Below are positions 10,652 to 42,229 of a DNA stretch of 45,549 nt, one piece after another. This DNA comes from Helicobacteraceae bacterium (GTDB lineage Bacteria; Campylobacterota; Campylobacteria; Campylobacterales; Sulfurimonadaceae), in the NCBI GenBank assembly GCA_027066325.1, contig JAMONY010000019.1, forward strand, positions 1 to 45,549, in the 5' to 3' direction. Within the stretch, counting starts at the first letter, position 1; every line of letters starts with the position of its first letter. The translations under genes and the position numbers were made by a program. The notes beneath the pieces were generated by a model, which ran no database searches, was not told the DNA's origin, and worked only from the letters and a program-made list of their open reading frames with translations.

Positions 10652-11071
10652 ATGACCGTATATACTGTTGGTACTTTTGACTTGTTGCATATTGGTCATT
10701 TAGACCTTTTAGAACACTGTAGAACATTAGGTGATAAGTTTGTAGTTGGGGTTGCTTCTGATGAAGTGGTAGCTTCATATAAAAGAGATGTGCCTGTGAT
10801 TCCATTGGCAGAGAGAATGAGAATGTTGAAGGCTTTAAAGTGTGTGGATCATGTTGTGTCTTATGATAAGCTTGAGTATGTGACTCAATGTAAAGCTGTT
10901 GATGCTGATATTTTTGTCATTGGAGAGGACTGGGGAGATAAACCTCATAATATCGCAGTAGAAAAATACCTAAAATCAAAGGGCGCAACAATTGTACAAG
11001 TTAGCTATAGTCCCCAAACTTCATCTACAAAAATAAAACAAAATGTCATAGCTCAGATTCATAAAATGTAA
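10652..11071 (+). CDS. Glycerol-3-phosphate cytidylyltransferase-like nucleotidyltransferase
   Basis: YTVGTFDLLHIGHLDLLEHCR (HxGH) and YSPQTSSTKIK motifs of the TagD-like cytidylyltransferase family. Confidence 0.85.
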   Translation: MTVYTVGTFDLLHIGHLDLLEHCRTLGDKFVVGVASDEVVASYKRDVPVIPLAERMRMLKALKCVDHVVSYDKLEYVTQCKAVDADIFVIGEDWGDKPHNIAVEKYLKSKGATIVQVSYSPQTSSTKIKQNVIAQIHKM

Positions 11072-11110
11072 CTATATGGCAGTTGCAAGATATAAAAATG
11101 TAGATAATCT

Positions 11111-12058
11111 TTAAAGTTCACTAGATCTAAAAAAATTATCTACAGCTTCTCTGAAGCTCGTGGCATCATCTATGCTGTTGACTTGGTGTCTAAAAGCCGA
11201 GGCTCTACTATAGCCTTTAGAGTAGGTGTGGATATGTTTTCTAAACATTACAGCGCCTCTAGTTCCATAAAACTCTATCATGCTATCTAGATGCTCTAAG
11301 ATTATCTGATGTTTTAAGGATGGATCAACTGTTGCGCTGTTGGTCTTGAGCTGATGAAATATCCAAGGTTTGCCTATCGCACCTCTGCCTATCATGACAC
11401 CATCACACTTAGTGTGCTCTAGTACCCATTGAGCTTTTTCGTAACTATCTATGTCTCCATTGGCGATGACTGGGATGCTAAGAGCCTCTTTTATCTCTGC
11501 AATAGCATCATAATCTACAACCCCACTAAATTTATCGGCTCTTGTGCGTCCATGTACTGCTATAAAATCTGCTCCACTATCTTCTACAGTTTTAGCTATA
11601 TCAACATGGTTTTTTTTCTCAAATCCAAGTCTGATTTTTGCACTTGTAAGAGGTTTGTTTGAGTTTGCTTTAATGCTTTTGATGATACTGCCTAGCTTGT
11701 CTAGATCTTTAAGAAGTGAGCTACCAGAGCCGTGGCTTACCACCTTTGGTACTGGACAGCCACAGTTGAGATCTATGATATCTATCCCATCTGTGCCATT
11801 TAAGACCTCTACGGCTCTTTTGATGATGTCAACATCTGAGCCTGCAATCTGTACGGAGTATGGTGTCTCGTCTGCAGATTTGGTAAGCATTTTTAGAGTT
11901 TTTGATGAGCCATATGCTAGAGCATTTGAGCTTAGCATCTCGCTAACAGTTAGATCTGCACCAAACTTTTTTACAACTTGCCTAAATGGTAGATCTGTAA
12001 AGCCAGCAAGTGGAGCTAAAACAAAAAGTGGTCTGCTAAAATCTAAAATCTGCATCAA
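11111..12058 (-). CDS. dusB: tRNA-dihydrouridine synthase
   Basis: LAPLAGFTDLPFRQVVKKFGADLTVSEM, DLNCGCPVPKVV, VHGRTRADKFSG, VIANGDI, GVMIGRGAIGKPWIF. Confidence 0.93.
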   Translation of the reverse strand: MMQILDFSRPLFVLAPLAGFTDLPFRQVVKKFGADLTVSEMLSSNALAYGSSKTLKMLTKSADETPYSVQIAGSDVDIIKRAVEVLNGTDGIDIIDLNCGCPVPKVVSHGSGSSLLKDLDKLGSIIKSIKANSNKPLTSAKIRLGFEKKNHVDIAKTVEDSGADFIAVHGRTRADKFSGVVDYDAIAEIKEALSIPVIANGDIDSYEKAQWVLEHTKCDGVMIGRGAIGKPWIFHQLKTNSATVDPSLKHQIILEHLDSMIEFYGTRGAVMFRKHIHTYSKGYSRASAFRHQVNSIDDATSFREAVDNFFRSSEL

Positions 12059-28919: not shown

Positions 28920-29957
28920 ATGGCATATATAAAAATCGACCAAGAAGCTTTTTTTTACAATCTTGACACTATAGCAGAAGAGATTGGTACAAAAGATAAA
29001 ATTGCGCTAGTTTTAAAAGATAACGCATATGGACATGGGCTTTTGCTTATGGCGCAATTAGCATCTACATACGGCATAAGCAAAGCTGTTGTGAGATCTG
29101 AAGATGAGGCTAGACTTATAGATGATCTTTTTGGCTATATTCTCATACTAGATGGTGTAGCAACTACTACACAATCAAACTTCTATTATGCTATCAACTC
29201 TATAGAGCAACTAAAGCAGATAGACCCATCTGCCAATATCGAGATCAAGATAGATAGTGGTATGCATAGAAATGGTATAGAGATGGATGAGCTAAATGAG
29301 AGCTTTTTTATTGCCAAAGAGCGTGGTCTAAATCTACATGCTATTTTTACACATTTTAGATCTGCTGATGAACTCACAAGTGAACTATTTTGGCAATATA
29401 AGAATTTTGAAGCCATCAAAAAGAGGAGTCTAGACTTAAATAGAGAGTATCTTTTTGGCACACTTAAGTTCCACTCTAGTAACTCTGCTGCTCTTTTTAG
29501 ATTGCCAGATCATCAAGATATGGTTAGAGTTGGAATAGCCGCCTATGGACTCTTAGATACCACAAATTCATCTAAAACTCTACTGATGAAACCTGTGCTT
29601 AGTCTACATGCTAAAAGGATCTCAACAAGAGTGCTTCAAAGCGGGCAGAGAGTTGGTTATGGTGGCAGGTATGAGGCTAAAAAAGAGCAAGTTGTAAGCA
29701 GTTATGATGCTGGTTATGCTGATGGACTACCACGATCACTTTATGTAGCTTGTTACACTACTCCAGATGCTCTAATGTTACTTGGTACTGTCTCAATGGA
29801 TAGCTGTATGTTGGCTACTAAAGCAGATGAGGTGTGTCTGTTCGATGATGCTAGAGAAGTGGCAAAAGCACTCAATACGATATCGTATGAGATTGTTGTT
29901 AATTTAAGTAGAGATCTTCACAGATTAGTAAGTCAGACCTTCTCCCTAAACACTTGA
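28920..29957 (+). CDS. alr: Alanine racemase
   Basis: ALVLKDNAYGHGLLLMAQLA (PLP lysine), HRNGIEMDEL, FHSSNSAALF, MVRVGIAAYGLL, RVGYGGRYEA, GYADGLPRSLY. Start moved from the 28545 track start to ATG 28920. Confidence 0.94.
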   Translation: MAYIKIDQEAFFYNLDTIAEEIGTKDKIALVLKDNAYGHGLLLMAQLASTYGISKAVVRSEDEARLIDDLFGYILILDGVATTTQSNFYYAINSIEQLKQIDPSANIEIKIDSGMHRNGIEMDELNESFFIAKERGLNLHAIFTHFRSADELTSELFWQYKNFEAIKKRSLDLNREYLFGTLKFHSSNSAALFRLPDHQDMVRVGIAAYGLLDTTNSSKTLLMKPVLSLHAKRISTRVLQSGQRVGYGGRYEAKKEQVVSSYDAGYADGLPRSLYVACYTTPDALMLLGTVSMDSCMLATKADEVCLFDDAREVAKALNTISYEIVVNLSRDLHRLVSQTFSLNT

Positions 29958-29982
29958 CTTAGGTCATCTTTTTCAATATAAT
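29954..29982 (+). promoter_or_regulatory. Near-consensus sigma70 promoter for the DUF11-protein gene run
   Basis: TTGACT (29954-29959) - 17 bp - TATAAT (29977-29982); the -35 overlaps the alr stop codon TGA (29955-29957). AAGGA ribosome site follows at 30001. Confidence 0.65.
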
Positions 29983-30012
29983 GTAATCCTATCATCTAAA
30001 AAGGATTATGTT

Positions 30013-30969
30013 TTGCGTAAAGTCGTCTTTGTGACTATCTTGCTTACGATTTTTTACTCATCGCTTAATGCTAAGGGTGCAGCTGCTGGAACACACATAA
30101 GCAACATAGCCTACATACACTACTCTGCTGATGGGCGTGACTATAACAACTCTAGCAATACGGTGATAGATGTTGTAGATCAGCTTATAGATGTATATGT
30201 GAGTTTCTCTCAAAATATGCCAACCTATATAGAGAGTGGTGATAGAGATCAACCATTAGCTTTTAAAGTTACCAATGTAGGAAATGGAGCTGATAAATTT
30301 ACACTATATAGTGACTCCAATAACTCTGTATTGACCAACTCTCCAGCTAGAATATACATAGACACCAACAGCAACAACATCTTAGATCTCTCCTCAGACT
30401 TACAAGTAGTAGATATCAACCTAAGCGCTGATGAGAGTGTGACTGTATTTGTAGTTAACAATATAATTGACGGTGACTTTGCTCGCAGTAGCCGTTACTA
30501 CCATCGCCTAAAAGCGGTCTCATTCAGGGGTGGATCTGGCATAAAAGCTACTCTGCATAACGCCAAAGGCGTAGATGGTGTTAATGCTATTGATGGTCTA
30601 AGAGGTGGAGTAAGTGTGGCAACAGGCATATATGAGATGTTGGCTTTTAAGATCAAAATAGACAAAAGCATAGCACAGATACAAAACTCACTAGGTGAGC
30701 CAAATGCTACAACAGGAGCAGTGATAGTCTACTCTCTTGAGGTCTACATCGATGGTAGTGGTGAGGCTACAGACATACTTATATCAGATCAGATTCCAGA
30801 TGGTATGAAGTATGTTAGTGGCTCTTTGAAGCTAAATAGCAAAACCTTAAGTGATAGCATAGATAGTGATGATGGAGATTTTGATGGCAGAGCTATTCAT
30901 GTCAATATAGCAAAGATTACAGATAGTGACGAGAAGCAGATAGTAACATTTGCAACCGTTATCCAATAA
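30013..30969 (+). CDS. Exported DUF11-like domain protein
   Basis: Signal peptide; N-terminal GTHISNIAYIHYSADG module; DUF11-like TGAVIVYSLEVYIDGSGEATDILISDQIPDGMKYVSGSLKLN. TTG start with AAGGA site. Confidence 0.8.
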   Translation: MRKVVFVTILLTIFYSSLNAKGAAAGTHISNIAYIHYSADGRDYNNSSNTVIDVVDQLIDVYVSFSQNMPTYIESGDRDQPLAFKVTNVGNGADKFTLYSDSNNSVLTNSPARIYIDTNSNNILDLSSDLQVVDINLSADESVTVFVVNNIIDGDFARSSRYYHRLKAVSFRGGSGIKATLHNAKGVDGVNAIDGLRGGVSVATGIYEMLAFKIKIDKSIAQIQNSLGEPNATTGAVIVYSLEVYIDGSGEATDILISDQIPDGMKYVSGSLKLNSKTLSDSIDSDDGDFDGRAIHVNIAKITDSDEKQIVTFATVIQ

Positions 30970-30978
30970 AGGGAGATT

Positions 30979-31440
30979 ATGAAAAAGATAGCATTATTAT
31001 GCATAGTTGTAGCAGGTCTTAGTGCTTCAGGTATAGAGTTTGTATCAAACTCCTATCAGGAGAGAGTTGTTAAGGATGAGAGTGGCAAAGAGAGCATTAA
31101 GCTTCTAAGTGCTACAAAAGTGCTACCAGGAGACACAGTGATATATGTAAATAGCGCAACCAATAAAACAGCAAAAACTATTGACCATGTGCTTGTTACT
31201 AATCCGATCTCTGAGCATATGGAGTATGTAGCATATAGTGCTCAATGTAGTACAGAGTGCACCATACTTTTTTCGATAGATGGTGGTAAGAGTTACGCAC
31301 CTGCTGCAGAACTTTTTGTCAAACAAGAAGATAAGATGGTCTTAGCTAAGCCAAGCCAGTATACAACTGTAAGGTGGAACATAGATACAGTAGCGCCATC
31401 TAGCACTACAGATGTAACTTTTAGAGCAAAATTAAAATAG
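30979..31440 (+). CDS. Small exported DUF11-like protein
   Basis: Signal peptide; single domain LPGDTVIYVNSATNKTAKTIDHVLVTNPISEHMEYVAYSAQC; includes CSTEC cysteine pair. Confidence 0.8.
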   Translation: MKKIALLCIVVAGLSASGIEFVSNSYQERVVKDESGKESIKLLSATKVLPGDTVIYVNSATNKTAKTIDHVLVTNPISEHMEYVAYSAQCSTECTILFSIDGGKSYAPAAELFVKQEDKMVLAKPSQYTTVRWNIDTVAPSSTTDVTFRAKLK

Positions 31441-31574
31441 GTTGCAGCAGGTTAACTTCTAAGAAGAGCATTTGCAGAGTGTTGTTTTTAGGAGTTGATC
31501 CTGATCAGAGACCATGTATGAGCGTAAGCTTTCACAAAAACGGTATAAAAATATCGCAATAGAAGGAGAAGATT

Positions 31575-32600
31575 ATGAAAAAGTATCTCATAGTAGCATC
31601 GATTGTGCTACTAGGGTTTGTAAGTAGTGCAAATGCACTAACAGGAGCTGGTGTAGCTATCAATAATACAGCTACATTAAGCTATAGCGTTGGTGCACTG
31701 CCTCAATCAGATATCAATGCTAGTGATGCAGGATTTGTTGTTGATAGGAAGATAGATATTATCGTAGCAAGCACAGATCCAGCTAAAACAGTCAATACTA
31801 CACCTAGTAGTAGTGAAGTTGTACTCACTTTTCAAGTTGCCAACTCAGGTAATGATGATGAGACATTCAACTTTAGTACAGCTGATATCTCTGGTGGAGA
31901 TGATTTTAATCCAAATAGCTGTCTTATCTATGATAATGCAGCACCACTAACAGCAATCACATCGCTACCGATTACAGCTGAGACAAATGTTACGATTTTA
32001 GTTAAGTGTGATATGCCTCCAGCACTGCCAGCAGTAGGTGGTATTAGTGATGGTGATAATGGAACGATTGTTCTAACAGCAGCTATTGATGCTGCTACTA
32101 GACCAAACCATACAGCAGATGCAGATATAGCAGCAACTATCCAAAATGTCTATGCAGATGGCGCAGGAGCTGATGGAGACACTGCCAACAATGGTGCCCA
32201 TGCAGATCAGGGCACATACCACATAGTTAGTCCTGATATATCTATGGTAAAGAGCTCCATAGTTATAAGTGACCCAGTCAATACAGCAGCAGGTGGTACA
32301 ACTCCACACCGCATACCAGGAGCTACAGTAAGATACTGTTTTACAGTTGATAATAACGGCTCTGCAGATGCAACTAGTGTTAATATAGTAGATGACTTTA
32401 CTGTAGGCAATAAAGACAGCATGACATATGTAAACTCTGGCTTTATAGCACAATCAAATGCTCTAGCTTGTGATTGTGCAGCTGTAGCCGATACAAGTGG
32501 TAGCTTTGCAACACCAGATGTCACTATACCAGTAGGTACTATAACATCTGCTCCAGCAACAGCGCGTATATGTGCCTATATTGAGGCAACTATAGATTAG
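31575..32600 (+). CDS. Exported DUF11-like domain protein
   Basis: Signal peptide; AGVAINNTATLSYSVG N-terminal module; IPGATVRYCFTVDNNGSADATSVNIVDDF DUF11-like domain. Confidence 0.8.
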   Translation: MKKYLIVASIVLLGFVSSANALTGAGVAINNTATLSYSVGALPQSDINASDAGFVVDRKIDIIVASTDPAKTVNTTPSSSEVVLTFQVANSGNDDETFNFSTADISGGDDFNPNSCLIYDNAAPLTAITSLPITAETNVTILVKCDMPPALPAVGGISDGDNGTIVLTAAIDAATRPNHTADADIAATIQNVYADGAGADGDTANNGAHADQGTYHIVSPDISMVKSSIVISDPVNTAAGGTTPHRIPGATVRYCFTVDNNGSADATSVNIVDDFTVGNKDSMTYVNSGFIAQSNALACDCAAVADTSGSFATPDVTIPVGTITSAPATARICAYIEATID

Positions 32601-35600
32601 TGTTTAAGATGAGAGCACTTGTGCAGATCTTATATCTCCTTTTTGCACTATTGCCAGTAGTGCTTAGTGCCGCCATACCAGGTGATGTACTAAGCAATAC
32701 AGCAACAAGTAGCTATAGTGCTGGAGTAAAAAAGATACAAGTAAGCTCCAATGAGACCAATGTCACAGTAGTTCGTTCACCATCAAGCATAGAGTTTTTG
32801 CGCTATTTTAAAACAGGAGCTGATGAGAATTTGTCTCTTAGAAATACAAAATATTTTGATGGTTCACACATGAGCGATATGGATCCACCAAGAGCAGCTG
32901 ATGGAACCTTGCTAGATTTCAACAATATAACACCAGCAGTAGTCAGTTCTACTTTTGGCGGAGATGATCTTATCTTGATTCGCGTGACAGACTTAGATCA
33001 AAATGAGGACAATACTGCCATAGATACTATAGAGTTAAACATAAGCAACGGCACTGATATAGAGCTTATAGAGCTTAGAGAGACATCACCATCTAGTGGT
33101 GTCTTTGTAGGCTACATAAGAACCAATACAGAGAGTGTCACGCAAGCTGATGGGCTTTTGAGTGTAGATAGGGGTGATAGTATTACTGCTATATATCGTG
33201 ATGAGTTAGATGTTGTCACAAGCTCAACTGCTGATGCAACAATTGTCTTCTATTCACATGTATTTTTAGCTAGAGATGGTAGGCGACTAGATGGTATAGA
33301 GGTCTCTTTGGTAGATGCTAGTAGTGGCACTCTGCTAGATAGCACAGTAACTCAAAATAGTGGAGAGTATATATTTTATAACATACCTGCTGGCAGATAT
33401 ATACTTGGAGTCAATGATCCAAAAAATATATATCATGCCCCATCTGTCTATGCTCCATCAGAGACCTCTAAGTATGGTTTTGTTGTTTATGATGATGGCT
33501 CATACTCAAAACCATTTATAAATACTGAACTACCTTCTCAAACTAATGCAGGCGCTAGAGCTTCTGCTGTAATTAAGCAGTTACGCAACATAGATATACC
33601 CATGGATGACCTAATCTACTCTATATCTATCCAAAAAAGTGCCTCTAAGCAGGTTGCTAGCGTAGGTGAGTTCATTAAGTTTACTCTTTTTATTGAAAAT
33701 AGTGGCGATGCAGATCTAGTAGATGTTAATGTCACAGATATGCTTCCAACTGGATTAAAATATGAGACATTAAGCGCTAAGCTTGATACCTTAAAGATCA
33801 AGACAGATCTAAGCCTTGATGGAAAAACCATAAGGTGGCAGATAGGTAATTTGCCAGCATCTGCTAGTAGAACCCTTACATATGTTGCGCAGGTTGGCAC
33901 AGGCATAAAGGGCAATAAGATTACAAACCAAGCCATCGCAAGCTCAAAGCGTATAGAGAGCTCAAATATTGCAACAGCAACAGTTAAGATTGAAGAGGAG
34001 TTGTGGCGCAATAGAGCATTTATAGTTGGGCAGATCATAAATCAAGATCAAAATAGTACTGATGGCATAGAGGGCGTTAGGGTCTATCTTGAAGATGGAA
34101 CCTACACCAATACCGATAGAGACGGCAAATACCACTTTGAAGCTCTTAGCATAGGCACACATGTGGTTCAAGTAGATCAAGATAGCTTAAGAGATGGTGT
34201 GGAGCTAGTAGAGTGCACTCAAAACCCAAGGGCTGCATTAAGAACATTTTCTAGATTTGTTGATCTGCGACAAGGAGCTATAAAAAGGGTAGACTTCTGT
34301 CTTAAAGGATCTATCAAAATAGATAGAGTTGTGCCAGATTTAAATGAGACTAAAGATAGCAACACTATGCCCGAATATAGCCCGTCGACTATACGCAATC
34401 TTAAAGATCCTCCATCGATACTCTGGCCTCCAAAGAGGTATGTGCCCAGTATACCAACAACTAAAATAGCCGTTTTACACTCTATCAAAGACTCAGCTCA
34501 GTTATGGCTAAATTCAGAACAAGTGAGTCTGTTAAATTATGACTCTCAAGTTGTAGATAAAAGAAGTGGTAGAGTGCTAACTATCTATAAAGGTGTAGAT
34601 CTGTTGGCTGGTAAAAATAGCCTTGAAGTTCTCATTAAAGATCAAAATGGCAAAGTGCTTAAGAGAGCTATAAGATCTATCCATGTATCTGGTGCTCCTG
34701 TGAAGTTGCGCTATCTACCTGAACTCTCAACGCTTGTTGCAGATGGTAAAAACTCACCAATCATAGCTGTTCAGCTTTTTGATAAAGATAACTACCCAGT
34801 TCGTACAACACTAAAAGGCTCCTATAGCATTGAAGAGCCATACATTTCGCAAGACTCTATAGATAAGTTATCATCTGACCCCTTAGGACTTAGAGGAAGT
34901 GAAGATAGGTATACAGTTGGAGCCCATGGTGTTGCCTATATTAGACTACAGCCTACAACAAGAGCAGGTGAAGCAACCTTACACTTTGATCTTGATGGGC
35001 GCACACAGAGCATAAGAGCTTGGTTGTCACCAAAAGCGCGCGAGTGGATTGTGGTAGGTTTTGGTGAGGGGAGCGTTGGCTATACAACTCTAACACAAAA
35101 ACAAGAAGATGGCTCATCAACTAGCCAAAAAGAGATCACGCGAGATGGTAGAGTTGCCTTTTTTGCCAAAGGCAGCATTAGGGGTGAGTGGCTATTGAGT
35201 ATGGCTTATGATAGTGGCAAAGAGAAGGGTGATAAAGAGCTTTTCTCTAAGATAGATCCAAATAGCTACTACACGCTCTATAATGATGCTTCAAGAGAGA
35301 ACTATGAGGCATCAAGCACAAAAAAGATATACCTTAAGATAGAAAAAGATCGCTTCTATGCACTTTTTGGTGACTACAGTACAGCACTATCGTATACGGA
35401 GCTATCAAGATACTCTAGGAGTTTTACAGGTCTTAAGAGTGAATATAGTGGCGACAACTTTCAGACAAATCTATTTGTTGCCAATACAGATCAGCTCTTT
35501 GTTAAAGATGAGATAAGAGGTGATGGCACATCTGGAGACTACAAGCTAAGCAAAGATAACATAGTGATCAACTCTGAAAAAGTGAGCATTGAGGTTCGCG

Positions 35601-37423
35601 ATAGACTACGCGATCAGATCATTGTATCACGCAAGACTCTACAGAGATTTAGAGACTATGAGATAGATTATGGTAGCGGAACTATAAAATTTAAAAGGGC
35701 AATTTTTGGTAGTGACAGTAACTTTAACCCACAATTTATAGTTATAGATTATGAGGTTGATGGTGATGAGGAGCAGAGCTATACCTATGGAGGGCGTGTA
35801 GCTGTAAGTACAAGCAGTAAAAATCTAGAGTTAGGTGGCACATACATCAAAGAGGATAGAGATAGATCAGATAGCCTACTCATGGGTGTAGATAGTAGAG
35901 TCAACATTGGTGAGCACACACAGATAAGAGCTGAATATGCACAAACAACCAACACAAAAGATAACAACTCAACAACAGCTGATGCTTCACTGTTGTCTAT
36001 TGAGCATGTAGACTCTGGAGTCTATGTTCGCGCATACTACAAAGAGCAGCGTGATGCTTTTGGGTTGTCTCAGATCTCAACATCTCAGCGCGCTACAAGA
36101 AAGATAGGTGTCGATACCAATAAGCGTATCTTAGATAGAGTAAGCCTATCTAGCTCTATGTATAGAGATACTCAACTGCAAGATAAAATAGATCAAGATG
36201 TTGTAGAGGCTAAGGTGAGCTATGATGATCTATTTTGGCAAAATTATCTTGGCTTAAGGTATGCAAAAACGACAGATAAAGACTCAACCCAACAGCTACT
36301 TTTTGGTCTAAGCAGAAGTTTTTTTAATCACTCTTTAAGACTCTCTGTTTCACATGAGAGATCGCTACAGAGAAGTCAAGATGATAAATTTCCAACAAGA
36401 ACACTACTTGGCATAAAATACTCACTAACATCTACCTCTGATATCTTTTTAAATTTTGAGAGAGTTGAGTTGGATGATAGCAAAAAAGATAGTGCTAGAG
36501 CTGGAGTGCGCGTGCGTCCTTGGAGCGGTGCTACTCTCTCAAATGCAGCAGTTAGCGAATTTGATCGTGATCAGACCAGACTCTTTAATACACTAGGCAT
36601 ACAGCAAAATGTCCCCATCACTAAAAATGTCTCAATCATATTGGGGTATGAGAGAGCTCAGGAGTTTAGTGAGTCAAATGGCTCATCTAATGCAGACTAC
36701 TCAGCATATAGTGCTGGTATAAGCTACAATCAAAAGAGCTACACTACAAGAGTAGATGCAGAGTTAAGAGAGAGTGCTCAAGAGGAGAAGATTAATGCAG
36801 ATGCTAGTATCTATACTCAAGCTTCAACAGCATTAGCATTGGCGCTTGGGGCTGGTTACTCTAAGCAGTCCCAAGCACACTCACATACACAGCAAAATAG
36901 CACAAGATTTTCATTGGCATATAGACCTCGTATAACAGAGTGGATTGTGTTTGATAAGCTAGAGTACAAGTATAAAGAAGAGTATGCAAGCCAGCAGAGC
37001 CTAACCACCACTAAGTTTATCAACAATCTGCATCTAAACTATACACCACATAGTGATTTTGAGGTGTCGTTTCAGTATGGGTTTAAGCATGTTATTGATA
37101 ACATAGATAGTGTTGAGTATAGAAGCTATGTAGATCTTCTAAGTGGCGATATTCGGTATGATCTCACAAGGGCTATTGAGATAGGAGTCCATACTAGCAT
37201 CTTGCACTCTTATAGTGCCAATAACTATGACTATAGCTCTGGTTTATATCTTGGCTATAACATATTTGCAAATACATATCTTGGGGTAGGCTATAACTTT
37301 GATGGCTTTAATGATAGTGATTTTGAGCTTCAAAATTATCGCAAAGAGGGTCCATATATAAGATTTAGAATCAAAGTAGATCAGCAGAGCTTAAGAGATC
37401 TACTTAGAGTGTTTGGAGGGTGA
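32600..37423 (+). CDS. Large (1607 aa) multidomain cell-envelope protein: DUF11 + carboxypeptidase-regulatory-like + Big-like domains + predicted C-terminal outer-membrane beta-barrel
   Basis: Signal peptide; GDVLSNTATSSYSAG; two RDG/RDGKYHFEAL CarboxypepD_reg-like domains; VGEFIKFTLFIENSGDADLVDVNVTDMLPTGLKYETLSAKLD; LVADGKNSPIIAVQLFDKDNYPVR Big-like; last about 780 aa are alternating amphipathic beta-strands rich in Tyr/Ser/Arg. Confidence 0.82.
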   Translation: MFKMRALVQILYLLFALLPVVLSAAIPGDVLSNTATSSYSAGVKKIQVSSNETNVTVVRSPSSIEFLRYFKTGADENLSLRNTKYFDGSHMSDMDPPRAADGTLLDFNNITPAVVSSTFGGDDLILIRVTDLDQNEDNTAIDTIELNISNGTDIELIELRETSPSSGVFVGYIRTNTESVTQADGLLSVDRGDSITAIYRDELDVVTSSTADATIVFYSHVFLARDGRRLDGIEVSLVDASSGTLLDSTVTQNSGEYIFYNIPAGRYILGVNDPKNIYHAPSVYAPSETSKYGFVVYDDGSYSKPFINTELPSQTNAGARASAVIKQLRNIDIPMDDLIYSISIQKSASKQVASVGEFIKFTLFIENSGDADLVDVNVTDMLPTGLKYETLSAKLDTLKIKTDLSLDGKTIRWQIGNLPASASRTLTYVAQVGTGIKGNKITNQAIASSKRIESSNIATATVKIEEELWRNRAFIVGQIINQDQNSTDGIEGVRVYLEDGTYTNTDRDGKYHFEALSIGTHVVQVDQDSLRDGVELVECTQNPRAALRTFSRFVDLRQGAIKRVDFCLKGSIKIDRVVPDLNETKDSNTMPEYSPSTIRNLKDPPSILWPPKRYVPSIPTTKIAVLHSIKDSAQLWLNSEQVSLLNYDSQVVDKRSGRVLTIYKGVDLLAGKNSLEVLIKDQNGKVLKRAIRSIHVSGAPVKLRYLPELSTLVADGKNSPIIAVQLFDKDNYPVRTTLKGSYSIEEPYISQDSIDKLSSDPLGLRGSEDRYTVGAHGVAYIRLQPTTRAGEATLHFDLDGRTQSIRAWLSPKAREWIVVGFGEGSVGYTTLTQKQEDGSSTSQKEITRDGRVAFFAKGSIRGEWLLSMAYDSGKEKGDKELFSKIDPNSYYTLYNDASRENYEASSTKKIYLKIEKDRFYALFGDYSTALSYTELSRYSRSFTGLKSEYSGDNFQTNLFVANTDQLFVKDEIRGDGTSGDYKLSKDNIVINSEKVSIEVRDRLRDQIIVSRKTLQRFRDYEIDYGSGTIKFKRAIFGSDSNFNPQFIVIDYEVDGDEEQSYTYGGRVAVSTSSKNLELGGTYIKEDRDRSDSLLMGVDSRVNIGEHTQIRAEYAQTTNTKDNNSTTADASLLSIEHVDSGVYVRAYYKEQRDAFGLSQISTSQRATRKIGVDTNKRILDRVSLSSSMYRDTQLQDKIDQDVVEAKVSYDDLFWQNYLGLRYAKTTDKDSTQQLLFGLSRSFFNHSLRLSVSHERSLQRSQDDKFPTRTLLGIKYSLTSTSDIFLNFERVELDDSKKDSARAGVRVRPWSGATLSNAAVSEFDRDQTRLFNTLGIQQNVPITKNVSIILGYERAQEFSESNGSSNADYSAYSAGISYNQKSYTTRVDAELRESAQEEKINADASIYTQASTALALALGAGYSKQSQAHSHTQQNSTRFSLAYRPRITEWIVFDKLEYKYKEEYASQQSLTTTKFINNLHLNYTPHSDFEVSFQYGFKHVIDNIDSVEYRSYVDLLSGDIRYDLTRAIEIGVHTSILHSYSANNYDYSSGLYLGYNIFANTYLGVGYNFDGFNDSDFELQNYRKEGPYIRFRIKVDQQSLRDLLRVFGG

Positions 37424-39471
37424 TGATGAGAGCTATTTTACTACTAGCCACACTCTTGATGATACAGACACAACTGTTTGCTTGGAAGATGGAGGCAGAT
37501 AAGATCACAGTCTTAAATACAACTGGTAACACTACCACATCGATCACCTTTAGGCAGACCTATGATACAACCCCGCTCATCTTTCTGCTAGCGACAGACC
37601 GTGGTAGTGATCCTGCAACTTTAAGGGTAAAAAATGTCACTACAACGGGTTTTGATGTCTATATAGTTGAGCCTGATGGCAATGATGGTCCACATGCTAG
37701 AATGACATCTGTACCATATATAGCCATAGAGCCAGGAGTACACACTCTGCCAGATGGCACTCAGATAGTAGCTCAGAGTATCTCAACACAAGCTTATAGG
37801 GCTAAACTCTTAGCAGGCAGCAGTTGGGATACGGTCTCTTTAAGTGGATTTAGTACAACTCCAGCCATATTGGCTCAGATACAGACAGCCAATAGTGAAA
37901 GAGTAGATACTCCAGTCCCAAGCGCAGTATCACGACCGTGGATGAGCATCGCCCTTAGAGGTGTCTCGTCTACAGGCTTTCAGATAGCTCTGGAACGCTC
38001 AGAGACAACTCTAGGCACTCTAAATAGTAACGAAGAGATCGCATATTTGGCTATAGATAGTGCTCTTAGTGGCTCAAATCACTACTTTGGCTCATCTACT
38101 GCTGATAGGATCTGGTATGAGAGTATTCGCTCAACCGATACCATAGCTGGTTGGGATAACTCCGCTGCAGGTTACAACATAGCATTCTCAACAGCCTATC
38201 CAGACCCCATAGCAGTTGCCACTAAAAACAGTAGAGATGGTGGAGATGGCGGATGGTTGAGGCGACGATCTATATCTTCTAGTAGTATCTCTTTGGTAGT
38301 AGATGAGGATTTAGCAAATGATACTGAACGCGCACACACAACAGAGAGAGCTGGTGTAGTTATCTTCTCAGAGCCATTTGATGTTGAGTTTATATATAAC
38401 ACTACAGCTGCTATGAGCATCAATGAACTTCTCTACAATGAGGTGACAACTGGTGTAAATAATGATGAGTTTATAGAGCTATATGTGACATCATCTGGTG
38501 ATCTAAATGGCTTTGTACTCACAGATCAAGATACTAACTTTTATAGATTTTCATCTTTGAGTGTTAATGTAGGAGATTATGTGATAGTGCACCTTGGAAC
38601 TGGTGTTGATAGCAGTGCAGGCTCTATACACCACCTCTACAAAAATAGTACAACTATACTTAATAACAATAATGATGATGTGGTGTTATTGAAACCAGCT
38701 CAAGATGTGAGTATCTTGGCAGATAACACAGCATTTAATGCAGAGCCTATGGACTATGTAGCGTATGGCAGAAATAGTGTCGGCTCAAATGTAGATGCTA
38801 TACCAGTTAGTATGAATTTGATAACACTAAGTTACTCATACACTTTTGGCACAGAGTTAACTGGAGCGGTTAATGGTGAGTCTATCTCACTCACTCCAAA
38901 TGCAATAGATAGCGATCAAGCACGCTGTTGGGAGCGCACTACAAGTGGCAATGCAGGCAATAACGGATGTGCTGGATACATACCTACAAGAGCTACAGAT
39001 GCTACATATCTACACTCACAAACACAGAGCAATACTGCTATGCCAAATATCATACTAAGTAAATCTGCGCTACCAACATACGACCCTGTTAATGCAACTA
39101 TCAATCCAAAGGCGATTCCAGGCTCTATCATAGAGTATACTATAGCTGCTAGAAATGAGGGAGCAGGAGCTGCAAATAACATATCTATTGCAGATAAAAT
39201 CCCTACAGATCTAAAGTTGTGTGTAACAGCAATTGGGCAGTGCCAAGTAGCACAGTATACAGATGGTAGCCCAAATAGCACTCTTAGCTTAGGAGTTATA
39301 GAGTACTCTGATGATAACGGTACTACATTTGCCTATACTCCCTCACCAGATATAGATGGATTTGATATCAGCGTAACAGATATTCGCATCAATCTAACAG
39401 GTACATTCGTCGCTAGTATTGGAGCACCTTATCCAAACTTTGAGATCAAACTCTACACTGGTATAAGATAG
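37420..39471 (+). CDS. Exported modular protein: H-type-lectin-like repeat(s), lamin-tail-like domain, C-terminal DUF11-like domain
   Basis: ITFRQTYDTTPLIFLLATDRGSDPATLRVKNVTTTGFDVYIVEPDG; SINELLYNEVTTGVNNDEFIELYVTSSGDLNGFVLTDQD (lamin-tail pattern); IPGSIIEYTIAARNEGAGAANNISIADKIPTDLKLC. Confidence 0.7.
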   Translation: MMMRAILLLATLLMIQTQLFAWKMEADKITVLNTTGNTTTSITFRQTYDTTPLIFLLATDRGSDPATLRVKNVTTTGFDVYIVEPDGNDGPHARMTSVPYIAIEPGVHTLPDGTQIVAQSISTQAYRAKLLAGSSWDTVSLSGFSTTPAILAQIQTANSERVDTPVPSAVSRPWMSIALRGVSSTGFQIALERSETTLGTLNSNEEIAYLAIDSALSGSNHYFGSSTADRIWYESIRSTDTIAGWDNSAAGYNIAFSTAYPDPIAVATKNSRDGGDGGWLRRRSISSSSISLVVDEDLANDTERAHTTERAGVVIFSEPFDVEFIYNTTAAMSINELLYNEVTTGVNNDEFIELYVTSSGDLNGFVLTDQDTNFYRFSSLSVNVGDYVIVHLGTGVDSSAGSIHHLYKNSTTILNNNNDDVVLLKPAQDVSILADNTAFNAEPMDYVAYGRNSVGSNVDAIPVSMNLITLSYSYTFGTELTGAVNGESISLTPNAIDSDQARCWERTTSGNAGNNGCAGYIPTRATDATYLHSQTQSNTAMPNIILSKSALPTYDPVNATINPKAIPGSIIEYTIAARNEGAGAANNISIADKIPTDLKLCVTAIGQCQVAQYTDGSPNSTLSLGVIEYSDDNGTTFAYTPSPDIDGFDISVTDIRINLTGTFVASIGAPYPNFEIKLYTGIR

Positions 39472-39473
39472 CT

Positions 39474-39500
39474 CGATAGTAGATGGTATCTATACTATCG
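39474..39500. terminator. Hairpin between convergent genes (possible bidirectional terminator)
   Basis: CGATAGTAGAT...ATCTATACTATCG: 8-bp outer stem CGATAGTA/TACTATCG plus inner GAT/ATC; overlaps the stop codon of the AraC gene. No strong T-tract. Confidence 0.4.
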
Positions 39501-40350
39501 GTATGTACACCTCTGTCACTATTTTACTAGGATCTGTCTCTCTCCATGCGTTGATATATTTTTCAAAAGATGGCTCATCTCTATATGTGTAGCCATTCTG
39601 CTCTAGCCATGCATAAAGTCCATACCAGGCTCTATCTGCTGCATCCTCTTTGCCTTTGTATTTAGTCATAGCATATCGCCCTCCTGCAATACTTTTTGTC
39701 TCAAAGCCATAGTTGGCTAGCTCATCTATCTCTGCTTCACTCCATGCAAGAGCTGCATCATAGCGGAGGTTATTCTCATCTGTTACCTTTGGATCATCGT
39801 GACATATACCCAATGCTTCACCATTACCCTCACCAAGACTCATTTTGATGCTTGGAGGGTTTTTGGTAAACACTCTCTCTAGATCATGCATCTTCTCACT
39901 CAGCCTTTTCCAAGCAATCTCAGAGCTTCTCATGTACTCACCAAGCTCTCGTGTAAAAACTACTTTAACCTCTTCTCTCTCAACTATTTTAACATTTTTC
40001 ATGTCCAATTCCTTGTATCTATTACAGAGCAAACTTACACTCTCTTTATATGCTGTTGGAGTTGTGCCAAACCGTATCTTAAATGCTTTTAAAAACCCTG
40101 TTGGAGTCTGATATCCAGCATCAAGAGCTACCTCTATCATGCTCCTCTCTCTTAGGACTAGTTCAGATGCTGCGCGCTCAAGTTTTAATCGAGCAACATA
40201 CGACATAGCTGACTCACCTACATGCAGCTTAAATATCCTACAAAAATGAAAATGAGAATATCCAGCAACTTTAGCAAGTGTAACTATATCTAGCTCTTCA
40301 TCTAGATGTGTCTCTATGTAGTATGTCACTTTTTGCATTTGGGTACTCAT
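39490..40350 (-). CDS. AraC-family transcriptional regulator with GyrI-like effector-binding domain
   Basis: N-terminal AraC HTH (LVTLAKVAGYSHFHFCRIFKLHVG-like ... GYQTPTGFLKAFKIRFGTTPTAYKES) and C-terminal GyrI-like region; start moved to MSTQ (40350), preceded by GGAG. Confidence 0.9.
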   Translation of the reverse strand: MSTQMQKVTYYIETHLDEELDIVTLAKVAGYSHFHFCRIFKLHVGESAMSYVARLKLERAASELVLRERSMIEVALDAGYQTPTGFLKAFKIRFGTTPTAYKESVSLLCNRYKELDMKNVKIVEREEVKVVFTRELGEYMRSSEIAWKRLSEKMHDLERVFTKNPPSIKMSLGEGNGEALGICHDDPKVTDENNLRYDAALAWSEAEIDELANYGFETKSIAGGRYAMTKYKGKEDAADRAWYGLYAWLEQNGYTYRDEPSFEKYINAWRETDPSKIVTEVYIPIV

Positions 40351-40462
40351 CTTCTCTCCTTCACTTTTGATAGCACCAGTATAAGATAATTGATTTTTTT
40401 TGTCTCTTCCATGCTTGCTATAAGTTATGCTCAAGCTACTTGTAGCATGTAGTTTATGCTCT

Positions 40463-42229
40463 TTAGAAGTTTATGTAAAAAGTGGCACCATTTTTATCAT
40501 TTAAGATGCCTATATGACCACCTAGACTAGTCTCAACAATCATCTTTGACATATAAAGACCAATCCCCAAACCTCTCTTTTTTGTTGTAAAGTATGGCTC
40601 AAATATCTTCTTAGTGTCATCAACCTTAACACCCCCAGCATTGTCGCTCACTCTAACACAAAGAGCATCAATCTCAATGGTGACTTGAGGTGTATCTATT
40701 TTGCGCTCTAGAAGCACATCTTCAGCATTACTTAGTAGGTTCAATAGTACCTGTTTATACTCATTTTTATGGTTCATAATCTCTATATCTTTTATGACTA
40801 TAAGCTTTAGTTCGATCTTATCAAAAGCGATAAAATCAACTACTTTTTGACTCTCATGGGCTAATGAGAAGTACTCTTTAGCTCTATTGGGCACATAAAA
40901 ATTTCTAAAATCATCAATGGTTTGTGACATAAACTCTAGTTGAGCCGAGGCCTCTTTTAGTTTCTTGGTGTGATGTTTGTGTGTATCTTGACTCTCTATG
41001 TTCATAAAGATATATCCTAGACGCGCCAATGGTTGTCGCCATTGGTGAGCTATGCTGCCTAACATCTCTCCCATGGAGGCGAGTCGACTTTGATGGACTA
41101 GTAGCTCTTGTTGTTCCTCTTTTTCATTCCTAATCTCTCTCATTTTGTAAGATATAGCAATAGCAAGAAAAAAGGCTTCAATGGTTGAGCCAACAAGGAT
41201 GGGATCAAAAAAGAGTAGCTTCTCAGGAAAAAAGTCAGAAATAAACACACCTGCCATCAGTGCAAACCAACCAAAAATAAAAAATAGAGCCGGTTTGTAG
41301 CCCTGTTTTAATCGTAACCAAGCCACCCATATGGTATAAAGTAATATAAATGTATAGAGTTTAAATATCAACATAATAGGGAAAAAGAAGAGCACTAGAT
41401 CAACAACAGCAAAGACTGTTATGTAGCGTAAGATTTTATCGTGAAAAGGCAGATATTTTTTTGTCTCTAAAAAAGAGCGTATGAAAAAAAGAATAAAAAG
41501 AATAACCACTTCAACGATGATAAAGTAGAAAAAAATAGCAATCTCTTCATACTCTATATGTCCAATCACATATGTCTCAATTATGTCAGTTTGATAGATT
41601 AAAACTACTATCATAAAAAGTTGCATCAGCGTATAGTAGAGAAAAGATTTTTCACGATTATAAAGATATAGTGCTCCATTGTAGATAGCTGCCATAAATA
41701 TAAGCCCAAAAAGAAAAAAAGAGATCAGTATTTTTAGACTATATTTATCTATCCAAGTAGAGAAAGTTTGCGGTGTATAGAGTGTTGCAATAGGAGTAAC
41801 ATGAGATTGTGAAGGGGTAGCTTTTAGAAAGTACCTTCTCTGATCTTCAGTTTTTATATAGTAAAAAGATAGGTATTTTCGTCCTAAAAATGAAAATTTT
41901 TCTAAGTTTTGGTGAGGCTTAAAGCTATGTTCTTTAAAATCAAAAGCTGTATGCTCTATCCAGTAGCTTCCACTTGAGAGATTCTCATCTAGCTCAACCA
42001 TTATCCAGTTAGATTGATGTATGCTGTCTTGTTTTATAGAAGATGGCTCTTCACTATCCCATAAGATCTCAACCTCTTCATCTCTTTGCTCTTGTTTTTG
42101 TACTTTAAATTGTGAAGCATAGTTGCAGATATCTGCGATATCTATCTTCTCATCAGTACTATAAGAGCTAAGAGTTACAGAGAAAAGAAGAGATGGCAAT
42201 AGAGCCAACAATACAATAAACTTTTTCAC
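40463..42229 (-). CDS. 7TM-DISM-type sensor histidine kinase
   Basis: Signal peptide, 7TMR-DISM extracellular beta domain, seven TM segments, SMGEMLGSIAHQWRQPLARLGYIF H box, LLNLLSNAEDVLLE N box, GLGIGLYMSKMIVE. Confidence 0.92.
   Translation of the reverse strand: MKKFIVLLALLPSLLFSVTLSSYSTDEKIDIADICNYASQFKVQKQEQRDEEVEILWDSEEPSSIKQDSIHQSNWIMVELDENLSSGSYWIEHTAFDFKEHSFKPHQNLEKFSFLGRKYLSFYYIKTEDQRRYFLKATPSQSHVTPIATLYTPQTFSTWIDKYSLKILISFFLFGLIFMAAIYNGALYLYNREKSFLYYTLMQLFMIVVLIYQTDIIETYVIGHIEYEEIAIFFYFIIVEVVILFILFFIRSFLETKKYLPFHDKILRYITVFAVVDLVLFFFPIMLIFKLYTFILLYTIWVAWLRLKQGYKPALFFIFGWFALMAGVFISDFFPEKLLFFDPILVGSTIEAFFLAIAISYKMREIRNEKEEQQELLVHQSRLASMGEMLGSIAHQWRQPLARLGYIFMNIESQDTHKHHTKKLKEASAQLEFMSQTIDDFRNFYVPNRAKEYFSLAHESQKVVDFIAFDKIELKLIVIKDIEIMNHKNEYKQVLLNLLSNAEDVLLERKIDTPQVTIEIDALCVRVSDNAGGVKVDDTKKIFEPYFTTKKRGLGIGLYMSKMIVETSLGGHIGILNDKNGATFYINF

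Follow-up and report, generated by a model that had tools for sequence, protein, structure and literature searches.

The stretch of DNA analysed here (hereafter the window), 45,549 nucleotides from a Helicobacteraceae bacterium, carries five exported open reading frames, designated A to E, which form one operon-like unit on the + strand between positions 30013 and 39471. Genes A and B are 9 nt apart and B and C 134 nt, while C overlaps D by 1 nt and D overlaps E by 4 nt. The order and lengths of the frames agree with those given in a first-pass annotation, as does the presence in all five of a Sec signal peptide, evident when the sequences are inspected by eye. The best promoter-like match within the interval 29700-40600 lies directly 5' of A; across the whole region, such matches are not more frequent than expected by chance. 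The features of the locus, in window coordinates, are as follows.

29954..29982, + strand: candidate sigma-70-type promoter, TTGACT-17-TATAAT (consensus match only, 11/12)
30013..30969, + strand: gene A, 318 aa, TTG start, secreted, C-terminal DUF11 domain (27.6 bits, above the Pfam cut-off)
30979..31440, + strand: gene B, 153 aa, secreted, with one Ig-like domain (DUF11 match sub-threshold)
31575..32600, + strand: gene C, 341 aa, secreted; tandem Ig-like protein that ends in a T domain (AlphaFold2 pLDDT 80)
32190..32597, + strand: T domain of C, residues 206-341
32600..37423, + strand: gene D, 1607 aa, GTG start, giant predicted outer-membrane barrel with N-terminal Ig-like domains
33623..33979, + strand: DUF11 domain of D, residues 342-460 (PF01345, 1.2e-15)
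34049..34195, + strand: carboxypeptidase regulatory-like domain of D, residues 484-532 (PF13620, 4.9e-12)
34442..35032, + strand: Ig/Big-like region of D preceding the barrel, residues ~615-811 (AlphaFold2 model, strands 6-197)
35048..37378, + strand: predicted beta-barrel of D, residues ~817-1593, ~38-40 strands (AlphaFold2; alternation z = 8)
35519..35728, + strand: conserved non-membrane insert in the D barrel, IEVRDR...DYxIDYxxGTLYF, residues ~974-1043
37420..39471, + strand: gene E, 683 aa, secreted; carries an H-type lectin domain, a Lamin-tail-like domain and, at its C-terminus, a T domain
37534..37677, + strand: H-type lectin domain of E, residues 39-86 (PF09458, 27.9 bits, cut-off 24)
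38416..38703, + strand: Lamin-tail-like domain of E, residues 333-428 (PF00932, 31.9 bits, below the cut-off of 34.3)
39016..39468, + strand: T domain of E, residues 533-683

A DUF11-type segment had initially been assigned to each of the five proteins. Pfam supports this assignment for A and D, and the NCBIfam model TIGR01451 for A, D and E; in B and C the matches remain sub-threshold. The reading of E as lectin-like is borne out by its H-type lectin match, and that of D as Ig-type and carboxypeptidase-regulatory-like domains followed by a barrel is supported by the domain matches and by the structural data below. D also contains an SdrD_B domain; for its Ig/Big-like region, sub-threshold matches of Big_1/Invasin_D3 type occur in homologues. 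Cysteines are even in number in C (6), D (2) and E (4), and also in B once the one in its signal peptide is left out (2), and they are absent from A, a parity compatible with disulfide formation outside the cytoplasm but no more than that. C and E share a C-terminal Ig-like domain, the T domain, with the motif K....DPVN...(N)PK(R/A)IPGA.(R/E)Y.

An AlphaFold2 model of D residues 615-1607, computed with 68 homologues, has a pLDDT of 82.1 and a pTM of 0.78. DSSP assigns to it approximately 38-40 membrane-length strands, which follow the Ig-like domains, and the hydrophobic alternation within these strands lies far above that of within-strand shuffles (z = 8). The region is thus predicted to be a very large outer-membrane beta-barrel; the lack of a barrel in such a model would have refuted the original proposal. 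The strand number rests on one model, and the exact number, as well as closure of the barrel, require a structure. Taken at face value, the prediction would place D among the largest single-chain membrane barrels predicted. No Pfam family covers the barrel in D or in nine homologous barrels scanned (one of them, at locus L080, has a partial Porin_4 match), and no NCBIfam model matches the barrel of D. When PDB sequences were searched with the barrel profile, nothing was retrieved beyond a marginal match (E = 1.2) and the Ig-type regions of two glycoside hydrolases. Foldseek likewise gave no good whole-fold match, returning generic large outer-membrane barrels (SlpA, SprA, LptD, FimD) with TM values of ~0.14-0.23.

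The insert in the barrel could be a plug or a cap, its role being inferred. Ushers have an insert within the barrel, between strands. In an usher-like alternative, A, B and C might be Ig-like subunits of a fibre that is polymerised through D and tipped by E, the insert acting as plug. As in chaperone-usher pili, genes for several small Ig-like proteins adjoin that of a large barrel into which a domain is inserted. Moreover, C has a subunit-like tandem Ig fold (its AlphaFold2 model yields only generic tandem Ig matches in Foldseek), FimD and PapC are among the generic Foldseek matches of the barrel, and A shows a weak, sub-threshold match to a fimbrial isopeptide domain. However, neither the usher family (PF00577) nor a periplasmic chaperone is matched in A-E or, by Pfam, in the homologous barrels, and the D barrel has no sequence relation to ushers in the PDB. 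Distribution and cargo data described below speak further against this arrangement.

Full-length homologues of D are present in 8 other genomes of a 397-genome sample of the phylum, all belonging to other families, and in 0 of 150 other sampled genomes of the source genome's own family. In the neighbourhoods of these homologues, the order A-B-C-D followed by E-type genes recurs. An alignment search with D over contigs of 84,980 species produced 130 relatives, of which 80 were kept; most homologues derive from metagenome-assembled genomes. The relatives occur in Campylobacterota (mostly Sulfurovum-like), Alpha-, Beta- and Gammaproteobacteria, Desulfuromonadales and other groups. As identified with profiles of A, B and C, the A-B-C-D block is found in more than 40 loci, approximately 16 of which lie outside Campylobacterota, the whole spanning Campylobacterota, Pseudomonadota and Desulfuromonadales. 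The block is conserved far beyond what chance would produce. Scattered homologues would have undone the initial proposal; instead, the genes stay together across the phylum and beyond it, and the putative system, judged by homology, extends outside Campylobacterota. Alphaproteobacterial loci mostly consist of C and D only, which counts against a fibre built from A, B and C. At one locus alone, L090 (253-6703), was the order C-B-A-D seen in place of A-B-C-D.

No other neighbouring gene is generally conserved at the cassettes, where only small lineage-restricted clusters were seen. In the window, an AraC/GyrI-like regulator and a 7TMR-DISM sensor histidine kinase adjoin the cassette (39490-42229, - strand); this pair is not kept beside other cassettes. 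In four loci of Sulfurovum type (L046, L047, L049 and L053), a secreted protein of 163-164 aa is encoded downstream of E and resembles, by eye, an L,D-transpeptidase (ErfK/YkuD).

The T domain is strictly terminal: it ends 128 of 128 confidently matched proteins, starting 116-186 residues from the C-terminus. In the phylum sample it is found in 9 of 397 genomes, which are exactly the nine with full-length D, and always at the D locus; DUF11 is found in 49 of the 397. DUF11 is common in genomes without D, and the generic DUF11 motif, originally assigned to all five proteins, is not the key feature in common; the more specific T domain is carried by C and E alone. Chance DUF11 resemblance was considered as an explanation for the grouping and was ruled out by the synteny of the block and by the contrasting distributions of T and DUF11. 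Of 229 sampled gammaproteobacterial genomes, 18 have T, 19 have full-length D (more than 400 bits) and 16 have both (Fisher test, 9e-20); two genomes have T without full-length D and three have D without T. These figures are uncorrected for linkage and shared ancestry, both of which inflate the association. All 30 D genomes that were searched whole have T proteins, fulfilling our working definition of the system (full-length D and a T-domain protein in the same genome), and in at least 8 of these genomes T proteins are also encoded elsewhere than at the D locus. Proteins of this unlinked type mostly have signal peptides, as judged by eye, and include N-terminal H-type lectin domains and Reelin-like repeats. 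At the D loci themselves, E proteins vary at their N-termini, which comprise LTD, H_lectin, PA14, NIDO, beta-helix or MAM-like modules or long DUF11 arrays; near the D locus of L104, a T protein has a CshA-type adhesin domain. T-domain proteins can exceed 1600 aa. Cargo that is large, modular and sometimes unlinked is unlike pilins, and a fibre of the usher type, although not to be dismissed, is in our judgement an unlikely explanation.

Comparison of closely related cassettes revealed a further division among the components. Between L066 and L088, the A, B and D proteins are 96% identical and the T domain of E 95%, in contrast to 49% for C and 40% for the N-terminal part of E. The same contrast is apparent in the DNA: identity is mostly 93-99% in A and B, drops to 54-70% in C, returns to mostly 93-99% in D (with a few windows at 85-88%), falls to 13-59% in the N-terminal part of E and rises to 94-99% in the T domain, with sharp boundaries. 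In the pair L063/L064, D is 90% and C 35% identical; in L061/L088, the E N-terminus is 41% and T 95% identical. Only few close pairs show the pattern, and one pair (L115/L117) shows no swap. Altogether, A, B, D and the T domain of E appear to behave as conserved machinery, with C and the N-terminus of E as swappable cargo; the alignments show the signature of putative cargo genes exchanged by recombination, with machinery and tag kept. Such a pattern is expected if C and the E N-terminus face outward and A, B, D and the E T domain form a conserved interface.

Lectin-like domains in the cargo raise the possibility that D is a receptor-type channel and that the lectin-like proteins capture carbohydrates for import or sensing; some of the wider barrel relatives are indeed annotated as TonB-dependent receptor or OmpA-family in public records. 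No TonB plug or receptor family was matched in D or its homologues, however, no conserved transporter or enzyme gene adjoins the cassette, and the wholesale exchange of cargo modules better suits surface display. We consider a role in uptake very improbable.

The barrel family reaches beyond the cassette. Parts of the D barrel (profile positions ~205-510 and ~660-1000) recur at the C-termini of giant single-chain proteins and also as a separate gene directly 3' of a giant protein, one annotated as SdrD B-like. An extreme instance is found in L130-L132 (G637:C2 425001-468135), which, when joined, contain a single adhesin-like frame of 11,758 aa (3719-38995) whose very end is formed by a D-family barrel (10886-11754). 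In two Campylobacterota loci (L036, 8370-11879; L039, 5483-8977), the gene of a long DUF11-type protein precedes that of a D-like barrel protein of ~1165 aa and overlaps it by 4 nt, an arrangement amounting to a two-gene version of the same idea. The C-terminal part of the giant protein of L036 matches residues 342-574 of D; D therefore looks like an L036-type module fused to a barrel, as far as such a match can tell. That such barrels end giant proteins, or are encoded immediately behind them, supports the inference that the family may generally serve the surface display of large Ig-like proteins. These relatives also bear on whether D exports anything at all. It might merely be an S-layer-like anchor (cf. 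SlpA of Deinococcus), with T proteins leaving the cell by another route and binding the Ig domains of D. The top Foldseek match of the barrel is the S-layer barrel SlpA, but with a TM of only ~0.2, and several Ig-like domains of D do lie outside the barrel. Conversely, the cassette has no other secretion gene as a conserved neighbour, and C-terminal fusion to giant passengers suggests that N-terminal parts are brought outside by the barrel itself. We regard a pure scaffold as decidedly improbable.

All three of these explanations are weaker than a model in which the cassette is a self-contained outer-membrane display system, combining export and anchoring, with D as translocon and anchor, T as docking tag, C and E as cargo and A and B as accessory proteins. 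The initial proposal, in which the barrel serves to anchor or export the lectin-like protein together with the small DUF11 proteins, is the best-supported model, export itself being inferred. The five proteins would cross the inner membrane via Sec, and D, whose barrel is predicted to be very large, would reside in the outer membrane, with Ig-like domains N-terminal to the barrel. The T domain of C and E is inferred to dock on D, possibly on its Ig domains, the proteins being carried through the barrel or held at it, so that their N-terminal lectin-like, LTD, PA14, NIDO or beta-helix modules may be shown on the surface. A and B may be accessory Ig-like subunits that chaperone cargo or bridge it to the barrel; this inferred role is the weakest step. 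C could be a structural subunit rather than cargo, as its type of T domain evolves fast. We favour the display model, and hold it to be probable though not secure, because of the conservation of A-B-C-D, the giant barrel prediction, the terminal position of T, its co-occurrence with D and the split between machinery and cargo, and also because of the unlinked T proteins with lectin- or adhesin-like N-termini and of barrel relatives at the end of, or directly after, giant adhesin-like proteins. Against it stand the lack of an identified energy source and of direct evidence for a gate; it rests on computation only, without prediction of a complex.

The nearest functional parallel is type 9 secretion, whose translocon SprA has 36 strands (PMC10994853). 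Both systems have a very large single-chain outer-membrane barrel (predicted, in the case of D) and Sec-exported, diverse cargo with a conserved C-terminal beta-sandwich domain, some of it encoded away from the translocon. However, D lacks sequence relation to SprA: the barrel profile found no SprA chain in the PDB at E values up to 5, no NCBIfam SprA model matches D and Foldseek alignment of the two gives a TM of only 0.15-0.17. The T domain resembles DUF11 and is not matched by any C-terminal domain model of type 9; in Pfam and NCBIfam, the C-termini of C and E match only DUF11-type models, with no type 9 sorting domain. Unlike type 9, the cassette has dedicated small genes (A and B), has its cargo mostly beside the barrel gene and occurs in Campylobacterota and Pseudomonadota. 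Genes for a PorV carrier or a GldLM-type motor were not found beside the cassettes, a search confined to neighbourhoods rather than whole genomes. By the features tested, the cassette resembles type 9 in logic without appearing to be a member.

Type V barrels have 12 or 16 strands. Giant relatives of D resemble type V proteins in having an N-terminal passenger and a C-terminal barrel, and the pairs of giant protein and barrel genes likewise recall type V, but the D barrel is predicted to be several times larger, and the cassette has separate cargo with a common C-terminal tag. Pfam models for autotransporter, inverse autotransporter and TpsB barrels or POTRA domains find no match in D and nine homologous barrels, nor does the type 11 (Slam/DUF560) outer-membrane protein in A-E or the homologous barrels. 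An apparent link to type 11 secretion in the literature was discarded: most of the matches concern DUF1194, with DUF11 mentioned merely as a domain that partners it. DUF11 surface proteins (OmcB-like, archaeal, Deinococcus) share the class of Ig-like domain, and in methanogens have been linked to cell aggregation (PMC10787695); they differ in that each is described as a surface protein on its own, with neither a dedicated barrel nor a terminal tag domain. On the features compared, the cassette seems to fit the definition of none of the systems tested (type 9, type V, usher and type 11). No description of it was found in the literature searched, most subscription journals lying outside the coverage, and the five-gene cassette is apparently conserved yet undescribed.

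A more far-reaching reading would be that of an undescribed secretion and display system independent of type 9, in which a barrel of ~38-40 strands, exceeding SprA, translocates folded, partly unlinked T-tagged cargo; which has spread by horizontal transfer in Campylobacterota and Pseudomonadota; whose cargo is exchanged through recombination at the edge of the tag; and whose barrel family also serves giant single-chain adhesins. We advance it tentatively, our doubts slightly outweighing our confidence. If true, a widespread outer-membrane export or display system that uses a C-terminal tag of its own would exist outside the secretion families tested, and some of the DUF11 domains, which are very common, would gain a concrete role. 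Surface proteins of many environmental bacteria would become predictable as Sec proteins ending in a T domain, the exchange of modular adhesins would have a natural case, and the outer-membrane crossing of giant DUF11/SdrD-type repeat adhesins would become testable.

In the tree of D, the protein from the window lies inside a Campylobacterota clade, among mostly Sulfurovaceae entries, whereas the flanking glyQ is closest to the source genome's own family; the cassette was therefore likely acquired horizontally, as far as these two comparisons can tell. Mis-binning of the contig, conceivable given the absence of D from the 150 family genomes, was ruled out by the affiliation of glyQ. At L119, from a record titled as a Bordetella parapertussis metagenome-assembled genome, D groups with Moraxellaceae in the tree, and the species label is probably wrong. 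Finally, a divergent cassette is carried by a mobilizable plasmid of Acinetobacter haemolyticus (CP085288.1; L126, 2524-16031), where it comprises B-like, NEW3 and DUF11 proteins, a 2008-aa relative of D, an OmpA-family protein and a DUF11 protein of 978 aa.
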